From: a virus
Reading direction: 5' to 3' (one strand)
Virus record (IMG/VR): IMGVR_UViG_3300045282_000126
Coordinates: 1-28,086 of that record
DNA: 28,086 bases
The stretch's first letter is position 1; every line of letters begins with the position of its first letter. Of the stretch, positions 9,532 through 24,270 are shown in pieces. The notes below the pieces were generated by a model. The model did not search any database. It saw only the letters and a program-made list of their open reading frames with translations, and was not told the origin of the DNA. The translations under genes and the position numbers were made by a program.

Positions 9532-10037
9532 TATTTTCCTTTGTTATCTCTTTTCGGCAGACTGGGCACATCCACGGATACAGGGTCCGCAGTGAACCCA
9601 ACACTGCGCTCCTCCCCGGACTTGATACTTCCTCCACCACGAAAGTTCGCCCCACGGATAGGCTCCTGAGGGGCTGGATGAATTTCTCTGATCTTTTTTG
9701 GTAACGCGATCTGCGTACCCTCCCACTCAACTGTTGGTACCTCCTTGCCCTCCACTATTGCCGCTCGGTCCATTGGGATTGCGTTTAAGATCTGTACTTG
9801 GACCTTGGTCTTTTCCAGCATCCTTCCACGATCTGAGAACTCGTCCAAGATCCGATTCGATGCGCGGAGCCGTACGTCCTCCTTTTCTGCCCGAAGGGCG
9901 AGGTTCACTATCCCCTCCGTCACCTGATCCAGAGCGTTCCAGAACCTCTTCTGGATCTTCTTCTGGGCCTTCTTTAGGTCGGGTTCCTCGTCTCGCGTTA
10001 GAAGGTCCACGCTGTATGTAATCTCTCCATCCGGCAA
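9531..10037 (-). CDS. Putative terminase small subunit
   Basis: A 168-residue protein immediately upstream of the large terminase and coupled to it by a one-base overlap. Residues 20-75 form Ala/Leu/Arg-rich helices (TEGIVNLALRAEKEDVRLRASNRIL), a pattern common in small-terminase-like phage proteins. The C-terminal half is Pro/Gly-rich and probably flexible. The start is TTG 10037 with AAAGGAGG ten bases upstream. The 5' 311 nt overlap the end of the HTH gene in the +1 frame. It would recognise the phage DNA and regulate the large subunit; assignment is by position and helix pattern. Confidence 0.6.
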   Translation of the reverse strand: MPDGEITYSVDLLTRDEEPDLKKAQKKIQKRFWNALDQVTEGIVNLALRAEKEDVRLRASNRILDEFSDRGRMLEKTKVQVQILNAIPMDRAAIVEGKEVPTVEWEGTQIALPKKIREIHPAPQEPIRGANFRGGGSIKSGEERSVGFTADPVSVDVPSLPKRDNKGK

Positions 10038-10398
10038 GTTCTAATAGCCTCCTTTTAAATTTTAACCCGGATGGCAGCCTGCACCGCGTTAGGGCCTTCA
10101 CTACGTCAGATGAGAAAACCTTGTACGATCCACGCAAGCTTCCAACACGATACACTGGCACATCCATCGAAAGAATGAAGGCCACGGGCATAGTGTTCTT
10201 TCCAGTCCCGAACAGCGTCTTCAAGTCTTTCAAGTTGATTAATCGGTCGGAGCGGAGCTTCTGATAGAGTTCCGCCTCCTCCTCCGAGAGGGAGACTGGC
10301 TTGGCAGTATCCAGCAATGCCTGTGCCTCCGACAGTGTGTCTATGTTGCTCTTCTGCCGGGTTGCTTGGGATCTCTTCCTCTGGTAAAATGCTCTCAT
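9727..10398 (-). CDS. Winged-HTH (excisionase/Nu1-like) protein
   Basis: The open frame encodes 223 residues. Residues 48-108 read as an excisionase- or Nu1-like DNA-binding unit: LINLKDLKTLFGTGKNTM as helix-turn-helix, then VPVYRVGSLRGSYKVFSSDVVKAL as wing plus helix. After about residue 120 the sequence becomes Gly/Pro/Arg/Glu-rich and runs antiphase to the small-terminase gene, so this tail may be a read-through rather than a selected domain. In lambda the DNA-binding part of the small terminase (Nu1) has a similar fold. This protein may therefore provide the DNA-recognition half of a split small terminase (inference). The start codon shares CATG with a divergent plus-strand gene. Confidence 0.65.
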   Translation of the reverse strand: MRAFYQRKRSQATRQKSNIDTLSEAQALLDTAKPVSLSEEEAELYQKLRSDRLINLKDLKTLFGTGKNTMPVAFILSMDVPVYRVGSLRGSYKVFSSDVVKALTRCRLPSGLKFKRRLLELAGWRDYIQRGPSNARRGTRPKEGPEEDPEEVLERSGSGDGGDSEPRPSGRKGGRTAPRIESDLGRVLRSWKDAGKDQGPSTDLKRNPNGPSGNSGGQGGTNS

Positions 10399-17640: not shown

Positions 17641-17950
17641 TAGCGCGGCGTCCATTAGCGGAATATATGCAACGTTGATAAAGAACGTTGTCCATGTATC
17701 GAAGCCATGCAACAAGGACTGTCAGCCAGCACGGGCGGCAATGTTGCTATTGACCGAGATCGAAACTTTCTATGGGAAAATCGTCTTAGAATTGGGGCGC
17801 AGAAACTCAGTCAACGAACTTAGGGCAATCGTGGAATCCTGGGACAAGATAAAAGAACTTTGCAGATATAGGGGAGAGAACGATAACGTGATGGAGAGGT
17901 TCAAGAAAGGAGTAGAGCTACCAGAGAAGAAGAAAGAATCATGGAACTAA
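17558..17950 (+). CDS. Helical protein upstream of AAA+ ATPase (130 aa)
   Basis: A 130-residue, mostly helical protein. Cys residues occur as KPCNKDCQPAR near residue 52. ATG 17558 follows AAAGGAG with a 7-base spacer. The end overlaps the ATPase start by 10 nt, so the two products are probably made in step. It could be a partner or adaptor for the ATPase, but only neighbourhood supports that. Confidence 0.8.
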   Translation: MEERERIVHRKMSLEEDLTNFTVAEICDSAASISGIYATLIKNVVHVSKPCNKDCQPARAAMLLLTEIETFYGKIVLELGRRNSVNELRAIVESWDKIKELCRYRGENDNVMERFKKGVELPEKKKESWN

Positions 17951-19404
17951 AAGAAACGCTGAATGATCGTTTCCAACGATTGGTGGCAGAACAGGTTGAA
18001 AGGAAGGGCATGACAAAGAACAAGAGGCTTAAGGTTACTCAGGAAACCGGGTGCATCACGGTCCCCACAACTTCCATCAAGGAGGCCATAGAGACCCTCC
18101 AGTATGAGCTGGCCTATCAGGAGGAGCCAGTAAATATCAGAGAGACAATCGTTGGTTGCTTCTGGGATGGTGCCCATGCATTTGGCAGGGCCATGGAGAA
18201 ACAATTCGGATGGGTGCATGGAGTGAGCGACTGGGGCAATCCTCCTCAGGAAAAGAGCATTGCTACTGGTGTTGGGACGACCACGCTCGTGCCATGGGGG
18301 AAGTTCAAGGTGCCCGGGATCGAAGGTGGCGTGATCTCTACGGCGTTTGAGAGAGACGCTCAGGGCAGATTCCTATTCTGTATTGCGGCCACGGTTAAAA
18401 GGAAAGATGAAGAGAAGATTCGAAATCTGGCAATTGCTACGAGAGAATATCTGAAAACCGGATCCCTCTATAAGGGCAAGGCAATCAAGATCAAGTTTCG
18501 GGACAGTGATGGTGAATATCTCCCAATGCCAGAACCAGTATTCCTGGATGTAAGTTCTGCCAACATCGAGGGATTGATCTTTTCCGATGAGGTGTGGAGT
18601 GCAATTGAGACGTCCATCTTCACCCCAATCCGATATACGGAAGCCTGCCGACAGAACAACGTACCGTTAAAACGGGGAGTGCTACTGGAGGGTGTATACG
18701 GCACAGGAAAAACCCTCGCCCTGTTCGCCGCCGCGAAAGTCGCTCAGGACAATGGGTGGACCTCCGTTTACTGTGAGGACATAACGGAGTTAGAGGATTG
18801 CATTCGTTTTGGTATGACATATGGACCATCCGTGGTCCAGTGTGAAGACATTGATCGTGTAATGAGCGGCAATCGCAACATGGGGATGGACGACATTCTA
18901 AATATCGTTGATGGCGTTGAGAGCAAGAACAACGATCTGATGGTGTTGCTAACCACCAATAACGTTGGTGCGATTAATAAGGCCATGGTTCGCCCCGGAA
19001 GATTGGATGACGTGATCGAGGTAAAACCACCGGATGCGAGCGCGGTTGAGAGGCTGATCCGGTATTATGCTGGACCAGCGCTCGATGCTGAGACTAGCCT
19101 TGTAGAGATCGGCAATGTGCTGAATGGTAGAATCCCCGCAGTCATCAGGGAGTGTGTCGAGAGGGCAAAGCTTTCCCAGATCAAGCTCTCCAAGGGAGAG
19201 GTGCAAGAGGGCGGCTTGAAGATCACCGTAGAGGCATTGCTTGATGCGGCCAATACGATGGGCCACCAGTTGGCCCTACTCGATGCCACAAAGGAAGAAA
19301 TCGGTGTATATGAGGGCCTTGGCCGTCTCATTGGCGCACTCACCGGCGGCCCACGTTACGACACGACCGTATCGAAATTGCTCCAAATCGAAAAGTCGGC
19401 CTAA
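17941..19404 (+). CDS. Classical AAA+ ATPase
   Basis: A 487-residue protein with an N-terminal domain of about 220 residues, for which I recognise no family, and a classical (Cdc48/FtsH/Bcs1-like) AAA+ module. Walker A is GVYGTGKT (251-258), lacking the usual first proline pair. Walker B is CEDID (301-305). Sensor 1 is LLTTNN, and the second-region-of-homology arginine motif is RPGRLD (351-356). A C-terminal helical lid follows, with RIPAVIRECVERA. Such enzymes remodel or unfold proteins or complexes as hexamers. In this phage it lies ahead of the recombination genes. Phage copies of classical AAA ATPases exist but their substrates are mostly unknown. Confidence 0.88.
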   Translation: MELKETLNDRFQRLVAEQVERKGMTKNKRLKVTQETGCITVPTTSIKEAIETLQYELAYQEEPVNIRETIVGCFWDGAHAFGRAMEKQFGWVHGVSDWGNPPQEKSIATGVGTTTLVPWGKFKVPGIEGGVISTAFERDAQGRFLFCIAATVKRKDEEKIRNLAIATREYLKTGSLYKGKAIKIKFRDSDGEYLPMPEPVFLDVSSANIEGLIFSDEVWSAIETSIFTPIRYTEACRQNNVPLKRGVLLEGVYGTGKTLALFAAAKVAQDNGWTSVYCEDITELEDCIRFGMTYGPSVVQCEDIDRVMSGNRNMGMDDILNIVDGVESKNNDLMVLLTTNNVGAINKAMVRPGRLDDVIEVKPPDASAVERLIRYYAGPALDAETSLVEIGNVLNGRIPAVIRECVERAKLSQIKLSKGEVQEGGLKITVEALLDAANTMGHQLALLDATKEEIGVYEGLGRLIGALTGGPRYDTTVSKLLQIEKSA

Positions 19405-19917: not shown

Positions 19918-20229
19918 ATGAAAAGGAATGGGATCGAGTGGGAGTTTGTTAGGCGAGCCGGTTCAACGGTCGTTATGCAACATCGGTGCCAAAGGTGGGA
20001 ACCGGTTTACGAGCCAGAGAAAGGAATTGTTATTAAAACTCGGAGTATTGTGATAGAAAAGAGTTTCAAAAAGGAGGATTATGACAGAGGCAACGAAAAC
20101 GGAACCATGGGATGCGGAAACAGCGGACGCGGAGTTGAGCGACATGATGGGCTACAAGGCCAAGGAGCTTCCAAGGGCTCTTGTGGCAGCCCAGAAGGAG
20201 TTCAAGACAGTAAAAAAGGACTCGGTTAA
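19918..20229 (+). CDS. Small basic protein overlapping ERF gene (103 aa)
   Basis: The frame from ATG 19918 encodes 103 residues. The first 55 (MKRNGIEWEFVRRAGSTVV to KSFKKED) look protein-like with strand patterns. The rest overlaps the ERF gene by 149 nt in +1 phase and becomes Gly/Ser-rich. The ATG lies only 9 bp after the promoter candidate, so leaderless or near-leaderless translation is possible. No family recognised. Confidence 0.5.
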   Translation: MKRNGIEWEFVRRAGSTVVMQHRCQRWEPVYEPEKGIVIKTRSIVIEKSFKKEDYDRGNENGTMGCGNSGRGVERHDGLQGQGASKGSCGSPEGVQDSKKGLG

Positions 20230-20800
20230 TCCATTCTATGAATCGAAGTATCTATCCCTTGCGGGTCTCATCGAGGCCGTTCTTCCTATTGCCAATAGTC
20301 ATGGGATCGCGGTACTTCAGGATATTGGATGGAGGGAGGGAGGCGTTACAGTTACTACCGTACTCATTCATGAATCCGGGGAGACGATCCAGTTCGGACC
20401 GATGTATATCCCGTCTAAAGATGATCCACAGTCTTATGGCAAGGCCGCATCTTATGGGAGACGGTATCATCTGAGCGGCGTGTTCTGCATTGTGTCAGAG
20501 GATGACGACGCCGAAGGGGCAATGGATCGGACAACTCCCAAGGTCAGCAAGCCCGCTTCCAAGGAGCCGCAAACCATTACAACTACGGTACTTAACATCA
20601 CTGCAAAGACCGGCAAGTTCCCCTACATTATCGGCACTACCGATGGGGAATATCGCACCTACGATGATCGGGTGGCGGCTCAGGCTGAGATTGCCAGAGA
20701 GACGAAGGCCGGGTTCATGTTCCAATGGACCGATAGTAAATGGGGGCGACAGATCGTAGTTGATCCAAAGATATTTGGAGAAAAGACAAATGAGCAGTGA
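20081..20800 (+). CDS. erf: ERF-family single-strand DNA annealing protein
   Basis: A 239-residue protein of the ERF superfamily, which anneals complementary single strands in phage recombination and genome circularisation. Two diagnostic blocks are seen: NPFYESKYLSLAGLIEAV (residues 50-67), and DDPQSYGKAASYGRRYHLSG (114-133) followed by an acidic SEDDDAEGA. The C-terminal 80 residues hold a beta-rich part ending in VDPKIF. ATG 20081 follows AAAAAGGAGG. The exonuclease that would supply single strands is three genes downstream. Confidence 0.9.
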   Translation: MTEATKTEPWDAETADAELSDMMGYKAKELPRALVAAQKEFKTVKKDSVNPFYESKYLSLAGLIEAVLPIANSHGIAVLQDIGWREGGVTVTTVLIHESGETIQFGPMYIPSKDDPQSYGKAASYGRRYHLSGVFCIVSEDDDAEGAMDRTTPKVSKPASKEPQTITTTVLNITAKTGKFPYIIGTTDGEYRTYDDRVAAQAEIARETKAGFMFQWTDSKWGRQIVVDPKIFGEKTNEQ

Positions 20801-21256: not shown

Positions 21257-21586
21257 TTGAAAACATTCGGTGGCGAAGAATACATGACTATTGCCGAGGC
21301 AGCAAACCTGCTGCATATATCGGAGTGGACTATACGTGGGTGGGTTGCCACTGAGAAGATTTCGTATACAAGGGAGCGCGGTCGGGTGTATATTCTAGCC
21401 AGCATCATTAGATGGTTGCTGGAAGGAGTGCCACCTGAACGAGATAAGGTACCAAGAGGAAGGCCATCGTTACTTCATCGGAGAGACGGAACTCCCAAGC
21501 CTGGGGAAGTGGCTGAAGGACCACGGGATAGCGGTGGGATTGCCACCATTCCTGACCCAGACGTACAAGGGGAGACGGATCCTTGA
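21257..21586 (+). CDS. MerR/excisionase-type helix-turn-helix protein
   Basis: The open frame is 109 residues. Residues 10-60 are a clear winged HTH: MTIAEAANLLHISEWTIRGWVATEKI, then RERGRVYILASIIRWLLEG. It probably binds DNA. Residues 65-109 are low-complexity and run over the start of the exonuclease gene in another frame, so they may be incidental. The start is TTG 21257 with AGGAGG four bases upstream; ATG 21284 is an alternative. It may regulate the recombination genes or guide a nuclease. Confidence 0.75.
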   Translation: MKTFGGEEYMTIAEAANLLHISEWTIRGWVATEKISYTRERGRVYILASIIRWLLEGVPPERDKVPRGRPSLLHRRDGTPKPGEVAEGPRDSGGIATIPDPDVQGETDP

Positions 21587-22064
21587 GCACAAGACGGATA
21601 TAGGCAAGTCGGTTCACTTAGCAATAAGTATGCTTGTCGAGGGAGTCTTGGACCGGGACTCCCTCGGGGAGGATATATACAACTATGTCACAGCGGCAGA
21701 AAAGTATATTGATGATTACAGAGAAGTCCCGATCAGCGTTGAAGAAACTTACGGAAGTATCGATCTCGGATACTGCTGCCGTCCGGACTTTGTTGGACAA
21801 GAATCCCTCGTGGAATGGAAGACCTCTTATCGAATCAGTCCTGCTGTTGAGATCCAACTCGCTGGCCAAGATAAAGCTGTTGGACGAACTAGTGTTCGCC
21901 GTGTTGTGCAACTGTGCCCAGACGGACAATACAACGTTACGGAATTTGACCCCGAAACTGGAGACAGAATATTTGGGTATATTTGGGGGATCGAACAATG
22001 GAAGAGAGAGTTTGGATCAAAGACGATCCGAAGTCGGAGTACAACGGGCAGACGAGCCAAGTAG
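21435..22064 (+). CDS. PD-(D/E)XK exonuclease with apparent CTG start
   Basis: A RecB/Cas4-like nuclease of 209 residues. The N-terminus reads NEIRYQEEGHRYFIGETELPSLGKWL, the usual opening of this phage family. Then come H61 in GKSVHLA, D118 in RPDFVG, E127-x-K129 in VEWKTSY and Q141 in VEIQLAGQ, which together make the active site. No ATG, GTG or TTG precedes this opening in frame after the TAG at 21396. CTG 21435 lies six bases after AAGGAG, so it is the likely start. GTG 21534 would delete the conserved opening. It should resect DNA for the ERF protein. Confidence 0.8.
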   Translation: MNEIRYQEEGHRYFIGETELPSLGKWLKDHGIAVGLPPFLTQTYKGRRILEHKTDIGKSVHLAISMLVEGVLDRDSLGEDIYNYVTAAEKYIDDYREVPISVEETYGSIDLGYCCRPDFVGQESLVEWKTSYRISPAVEIQLAGQDKAVGRTSVRRVVQLCPDGQYNVTEFDPETGDRIFGYIWGIEQWKREFGSKTIRSRSTTGRRAK

Positions 22065-23246: not shown

Positions 23247-23716
23247 AAGAGCTGGCTCATCGTGTTGAATATGCTGACGAGAAGATTAATACTGCCGGGG
23301 ACGAGATTAGAGATCTGAAGAGGGCGGTAGAAAGGAATGAGAATTGGCTAGTGTTCGCCTGTATTTCGGTTTTTGTTCCGTTTCTTGTTGGATTAGTCGT
23401 GTGGTTCGGTCCCTATTCTACTAATCAGGAGGCAATGGCTGCGGCGGTGAGGAGTACAGCGGAAGGATCCAATTCCAACATCATCGCGCATTGGGAAGTT
23501 TATAACAATCTCGATACTAAGATTAACTCGTTGGATAGCAGGGTGCGTAAGTTAGAGCCAACCCCAAAGCCCACGCCGGTACCAACCCCGAACCCATGTG
23601 CCAGCGTGCCCAGATGTATTCATGGCATCAGCACCACTGATGGTCCTTATTATTCTGATCCGTGGGGACATAGCTTCAGATATAGTGGCAATTGCAACTG
23701 CTGGTATGTCCGGTGA
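23210..23716 (+). CDS. Membrane protein with coiled coils, PT-linker and Cys-rich end
   Basis: A 168-residue protein with a modular layout. It has an N-terminal coiled coil (residues 10-45), a membrane span at about 47-70 (FACISVFVPFLVGLVVWFG) and a second coiled coil (NNLDTKINSLDSRVRKLE). A Pro-Thr linker follows (PTPKPTPVPTPNP), then a 38-residue Cys-rich end with four cysteines (CASVPRC and CNC). The linker and cysteines indicate that the C-terminal part is exported and disulfide-bonded. ATG 23210 follows AAGGAG. It resembles periplasm-spanning or surface-display proteins; a spanin-like or exclusion role is possible but unproven. Confidence 0.8.
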   Translation: MPRVQDKTSGIIEELAHRVEYADEKINTAGDEIRDLKRAVERNENWLVFACISVFVPFLVGLVVWFGPYSTNQEAMAAAVRSTAEGSNSNIIAHWEVYNNLDTKINSLDSRVRKLEPTPKPTPVPTPNPCASVPRCIHGISTTDGPYYSDPWGHSFRYSGNCNCWYVR

Positions 23717-24270
23717 AGTCGGAACTAGAGGCCCTCTTCGGTAGGCACATTGCTGATGAGGGCCTAATCACTCCTCATGAGCATTACAAATTCCATCCCG
23801 GCAGGGACTGGGAATATGACTTTGCGTGGCCATCCCACATGGTTGCGGTGGAGATAGAGGGGGGAACATGGGCAGGAGGACGCCACACCCGGGGGGTAGG
23901 ATTCGAAAACGATTGCCGGAAGTACGCGGCAGGAAACTGGCACGGGTGGATGATTCTAAGGTTCACGAGCAAGATGGTAAAAAGCGGAGAGGCAATAAAA
24001 ACTCTAAGACGTGTGCTCCAAAGAGGAGCGGTTCCGTTGGCAGAACTTGCAGAAAGGTACAACTGCCACCCCCGCCCGATGATGGAACGTGCCATCTCTG
24101 CGGGTCAGACCTCGACAGCGCGTGGGCAAACGTCAAGTACCACGACATCTGTAAAAACAGGATCCCGGCAAACGACAGGGCGCAAGTTGCAGCGGAACGT
24201 TACGCGGCGCGGAAAGCCAAATCGTCCTCGTCGTCCTCGTCGGCGTCGGAAGGCAAGTCCTCGGGGTTAG
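23713..24270 (+). CDS. PD-(D/E)XK-type endonuclease (VSR/DUF559-like)
   Basis: The first 105 residues form a small restriction-like nuclease. D36 lies in YDFAWP, E47/E49 in VAVEIEGG, and the downstream W, GRH, D and K residues (RHTRGVGFENDCRKY) and WMILRFTSKMV follow the pattern of phage Vsr/DUF559-like enzymes. GTG 23713 overlaps the previous stop (GTGA). After residue about 125 the frame becomes Thr/Arg-rich and lies over the next gene, so the real domain ends near 24090. It may act on branched DNA or on host DNA. Confidence 0.75.
   Translation: MKSELEALFGRHIADEGLITPHEHYKFHPGRDWEYDFAWPSHMVAVEIEGGTWAGGRHTRGVGFENDCRKYAAGNWHGWMILRFTSKMVKSGEAIKTLRRVLQRGAVPLAELAERYNCHPRPMMERAISAGQTSTARGQTSSTTTSVKTGSRQTTGRKLQRNVTRRGKPNRPRRPRRRRKASPRG

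Follow-up and report, generated by a model that had tools for sequence, protein, structure and literature searches.

The Exonuclease Locus

The window (the whole stretch of 28,086 nucleotides that was analyzed, corresponding to positions 1 to 28,086 of the IMG/VR virus record IMGVR_UViG_3300045282_000126) carries on its plus strand a predicted exonuclease gene, a HTH gene that overlaps its beginning and, upstream of both, a gene for an Erf-type protein. The features of the locus are the following:

20081 to 20800, plus strand: gene of an Erf-type single-strand annealing protein that probably partners the exonuclease (tblastn match to phage Erf proteins)
21257 to 21586, plus strand: HTH (excisionase/MerR-like) gene with a TTG start (Pfam HTH_17, E 2.3e-7, residues 9-54)
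21396 to 21398, plus strand: TAG stop that opens the nuclease frame, read from the sequence
21423 to 21428, plus strand: Shine-Dalgarno sequence (SD) AAGGAG, within the HTH gene
21435 to 21437, plus strand: proposed start codon CTG
21435 to 22064, plus strand: predicted exonuclease gene, 209 aa, PD-(D/E)XK (RecB-like) family (PHROG 298 and a six-homologue profile)
21444 to 21524, plus strand: conserved N-terminal segment IRYQEEGHRYFIGETELPSLGKWLKDH (Y-x-x-x-x-H-x-Y ... LPS), located by alignment at rank 1
21534 to 21536, plus strand: GTG, first canonical in-frame start and expected choice of a gene finder, which would cut off the conserved N-terminus

The nuclease frame (plus strand, position mod 3 = 0) is open from TAG 21396 to 22064. 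Following that stop it reads PASLDGCWKECHLNEIRYQEEGHRYFIGETELPSLGKWLKDHGIA and then GTG 21534, its earliest ATG, GTG or TTG codon; the first-pass annotation had pointed out this absence of ordinary starts, and its positions for the TAG, the GTG, CTG 21435 and AAGGAG all proved right. CTG 21435 is the sole in-frame NUG codon ahead of the conserved N-terminal stretch, the further in-frame near-cognates being ATA 21444 and ATC 21477. Among 49 ORFs checked, no other stays open for as long before reaching a canonical start as that of the nuclease (45 codons, against 31 for the next). By our own arithmetic (3 of 61 codons) a start-free run of this length is expected about 10% of the time by chance, and the case therefore rests on homology, the SD and the change of coding frame. 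Taken alone, the lack of a start codon over 45 codons is not rare; its combination with homology upstream of the GTG is beyond chance.

Elsewhere in the window, an AAA-type ATPase gene (17941-19404, plus strand) shows a strong match to PHROG 10440 (unknown function, 448 bits) and about 44% identity to Erwinia and Pseudomonas phage proteins that carry an FtsH-like annotation, and a gene at 23692-24270 (plus strand) strongly matches PHROG 503 (unknown function, 112 bits).

The Nuclease and Its Relatives

The assignment to a nuclease family made at first pass is borne out by a match to the PHROG 298 (exonuclease) profile (E 2.2e-10 over residues 16-194) and by a weak match of a profile of nine relatives, compared with solved structures, to the RecB-like mitochondrial exonuclease MGME1 (E about 0.004). 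Searches of NCBIfam and Pfam with the nuclease gave no match, and its AlphaFold model has a mean pLDDT of 39, too low to be of use. The active-site motifs are present, namely GKSVH (GxxVH) at 21603, EWK ((D/E)xK) at 21813-21821 and the D, placed either at 21762 (residue 122 when numbered from 21399) or eight residues further; GxxVH, D and (D/E)xK are invariant columns of the alignment. With PHROG 298 exonucleases such as gp68 of Pseudomonas phage Itty13 and that of PinkBerry-associated phage LS06-2018-MD08 the protein shares the N-terminal hairpin motif, LPS, GxxVH, D and (D/E)xK. It differs from these examples in carrying about 9 extra residues, inserted behind the N-terminal segment, and in its proposed CTG start, whereas theirs are ATG or GTG. 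Relatives taken singly share only about 20-27% identity with it, and no close relatives were found in viral, genome, phage and plasmid sets queried with five proteins (nuclease, HTH, Erf, terminase and ATPase) and with an exact DNA pattern.

Conservation Upstream of the Canonical Start

The 27-residue segment at 21444 ranks first among the 24,093 six-frame windows compared with five homologues (z 7.1), with an ungapped score of 37.2 against these relatives versus 13.0 for the runner-up window, and none of 20,000 shuffles reached its score. The segment escaped a short N-terminal HMM made from twelve relatives, some of them distant and without the H-x-Y motif; the five closer members were picked after that failure and the first rank is to be read accordingly, though the margin is large. 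With a profile of six homologues, the stop-to-stop frame scores 43.4 bits (E 3.7e-15) and the protein taken from the GTG 29.4 bits (E 7.2e-11), the sequence upstream of GTG 21534 thus contributing 14 bits, and the alignment begins at N14, the codon directly after CTG 21435. The view that the stretch following the CTG is the N-terminus of the nuclease family, LPS included, is in this way confirmed.

Annotated starts were compared in 18 aligned relatives, one of which is an unannotated IMG/VR copy of Itty13. None begins at the equivalent of GTG 21534; they begin near or upstream of the position of 21435, the outcome anticipated at first pass. The conserved His is preceded by 8 residues in a nuclease from a P. 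psychrotolerans plasmid (ATG start) and by 10 in Itty13 (GTG start) and likewise in its IMG/VR copy (98% identical), while other H-x-Y relatives have 15, 21-22 and, in one distant member, 39. Counted from CTG 21435, the protein of the window has 10 residues ahead of this His. Comparison with homologues thus supports a start of the nuclease upstream of GTG 21534, for which CTG 21435 would be the sole plausible initiator.

Codon usage changes over the same region. The nuclease frame scores as non-coding before CTG 21435 (-5.6 over 21399-21434) and as coding after it (+5.5 over 21435-21534), whereas the HTH frame scores +10.2 up to 21422 and -4.3 over 21435-21534, the coding preference passing from one frame to the other near 21420-21440. 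The HTH_17 domain ends near 21418, and about the last 50 codons of the HTH gene lie over the nuclease in a different frame. In this overlap tail the codon score is -0.4 for the HTH frame versus +9.9 for the nuclease frame, which suggests that only the latter is under coding constraint over 21437-21586. The overlap (plus strand) is long, placing the last 50 codons of the HTH gene inside that of the nuclease.

The Initiation Signal

The AAGGAG motif at 21423-21428 lies six nucleotides before CTG 21435, the spacing given at first pass, and its predicted duplex with the anti-SD (-7.6 kcal/mol) resembles those of other genes of the contig in both strength and spacing. For GTG 21534, in turn, the SD is weak (-4.7 kcal/mol) and its spacing is 12. 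An equally strong SD at usable spacing is found at 21 of the 906 CTG codons in the window (both strands), and the nuclease ORF is the only one among the 49 with an in-frame CTG so served ahead of its first canonical start. CTG 21435 is predicted to be paired in the local RNA fold; folding around this codon was no stronger than in shuffled sequences (z -0.68), nothing beyond chance being detected.

The first-pass annotation had also considered coupling to the HTH gene, in which the SD lies. Coupling by termination and reinitiation is unlikely since the HTH stop (21584-21586) lies 146 nt past the CTG codon; ribosomes translating the HTH gene might nevertheless open the mRNA around the CTG site. 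A mini-ORF extends from ATG 21412 to TGA 21438 (plus strand; ATG GTT GCT GGA AGG AGT GCC ACC TGA) and overlaps the CTG as CTGA, resembling a four-base start/stop overlap. As a source of reinitiation it was set aside, with no evident SD and no sign of coding.

On the minus strand, the gene at 9727-10398 has an AGGAGG (duplex -11.0) that stands 13 nt before its ATG and 7 nt before ATC 10404, a codon in the same frame; this represents either an unusual SD spacing or another non-canonical start.

Probable Translation from CTG and Its Alternatives

Four things were established computationally: the reading frame, the N-terminal homology, the SD with its spacing and the lack of a canonical start. The explanation that best accounts for them is that the exonuclease gene is, in all likelihood, translated from CTG 21435. 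Recruitment would be through the AAGGAG at 21423-21428, the initiator fMet-tRNA would start at the CTG, and initiation there would yield a PD-(D/E)XK exonuclease of 209 residues at a level expected to be lower than from a canonical start.

Four other explanations were weighed. The C of the CTG could be an error made in sequencing or assembly, or else a minority variant, in which case the phage population would have ATG, GTG or TTG at 21435. The contig is a single virus record and probably a fragment, which leaves some room for this; by our own reasoning, though, base errors are rare in the consensus of an assembled contig and one would have to strike exactly this base, and the frames are otherwise intact through the region, making an error or variant quite unlikely.

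A similarly poor case can be made for a fusion protein produced by ribosomes that shift +1 from the HTH gene before 21444. Ribosomes would indeed be present, as the HTH frame stays open through the region to 21584, but no slippery site was found ahead of the conserved segment in the HTH/nuclease overlap: no HTH-frame codon over 21386-21443 allows its tRNA to re-pair at two positions after a +1 step, and the earliest that does, AAG 21446, is already within the segment. An HTH domain in front of the nuclease occurs in no homologue examined, and the SD at 21423 would be left unexplained. Frameshifting is accordingly considered very unlikely.

Initiation at GTG 21534, with the upstream homology as a relic, is more improbable again. 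The catalytic residues all lie downstream of this codon, the protein started there still matches the family, and a Criblamydia relative does without the H-x-Y hairpin. Against this, the segment upstream of 21534 is well conserved, the SD of the GTG is weak and poorly spaced and no homologue starts there, the Criblamydia protein itself retaining the LPxxxxVT part. Least probable of all is a start at another near-cognate codon such as ATA 21444, an in-frame codon at the margin of the conserved segment but 15 nt away from the SD, beyond the usual spacing, and at a position before which homologues carry at least one residue.

A Probable Recombination Pair

Besides a gene with a weak match to PHROG 762, the nuclease has as its neighbor the Erf-type gene (20081-20800), whose product is up to 48% identical to phage Erf proteins (tblastn). 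The same nuclease family adjoins an Erf-type annealing protein in several phages, among them PinkBerry-associated phage LS06-2018-MD08 and Bacteroides phage B124-14. In the P. psychrotolerans plasmid its member lies beside Bet, and phages D3 and YNAF have an annotated exonuclease after Erf. Judging from these families, the nuclease of the window most likely supplies the exonuclease to a phage annealing-recombination pair, in which it would resect double-strand ends and Erf would anneal the single strands. That the CTG within an excisionase-like HTH gene is a selected brake, keeping the nuclease low relative to Erf and gated by HTH translation or by host IF3 levels during infection, is a rather doubtful extension of the CTG-start reading.

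CTG Starts in Other Genes and Implications

Annotated genes very rarely start at CTG (20 of about 85,000; PMC11983097). The nearest parallel is the FIB rep gene of F-like plasmids, which encodes a replication protein and starts at a CTG with a good SD ahead of it, although annotation wrongly placed the start at a GTG 14 codons further downstream; the CTG was demonstrated by N-terminal analysis and by mutation of CTG to CTC (PMC11983097). Both genes thus have a good SD in front of the CTG and, further along in the same frame, a GTG picked by annotation in its place; in the window this GTG lies 33 codons downstream, and the CTG is supported by comparison, whereas that of FIB rep is proven. Among phages, CTG starts have been predicted by annotation for four ORFs of Midgardsormr38 (PMC7317114) and for ORF10 of phiB124-14 (PMC3338817). 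The output from CTG is roughly tenfold below that from TTG according to Hecht et al., as cited in PMC11983097, and raised IF3 inhibits translation from non-canonical starts in E. coli (PMC2268962). By analogy with the latter effect, a dependence of nuclease expression on initiation factors, as suggested at first pass, would be reasonable.

The nuclease of the window is a well-supported example, on an ordinary scale, of a rare start known in other genes, and it overturns nothing known. Standard gene finders take only ATG, GTG and TTG, with the consequence that such genes are called 33 codons short or are missed; a case backed by homology and a good SD shows a way to find further CTG starts in phage metagenomes. 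Should the balance between exonuclease and annealing protein be set by the weak start, phage recombination would have in it a simple means of control.
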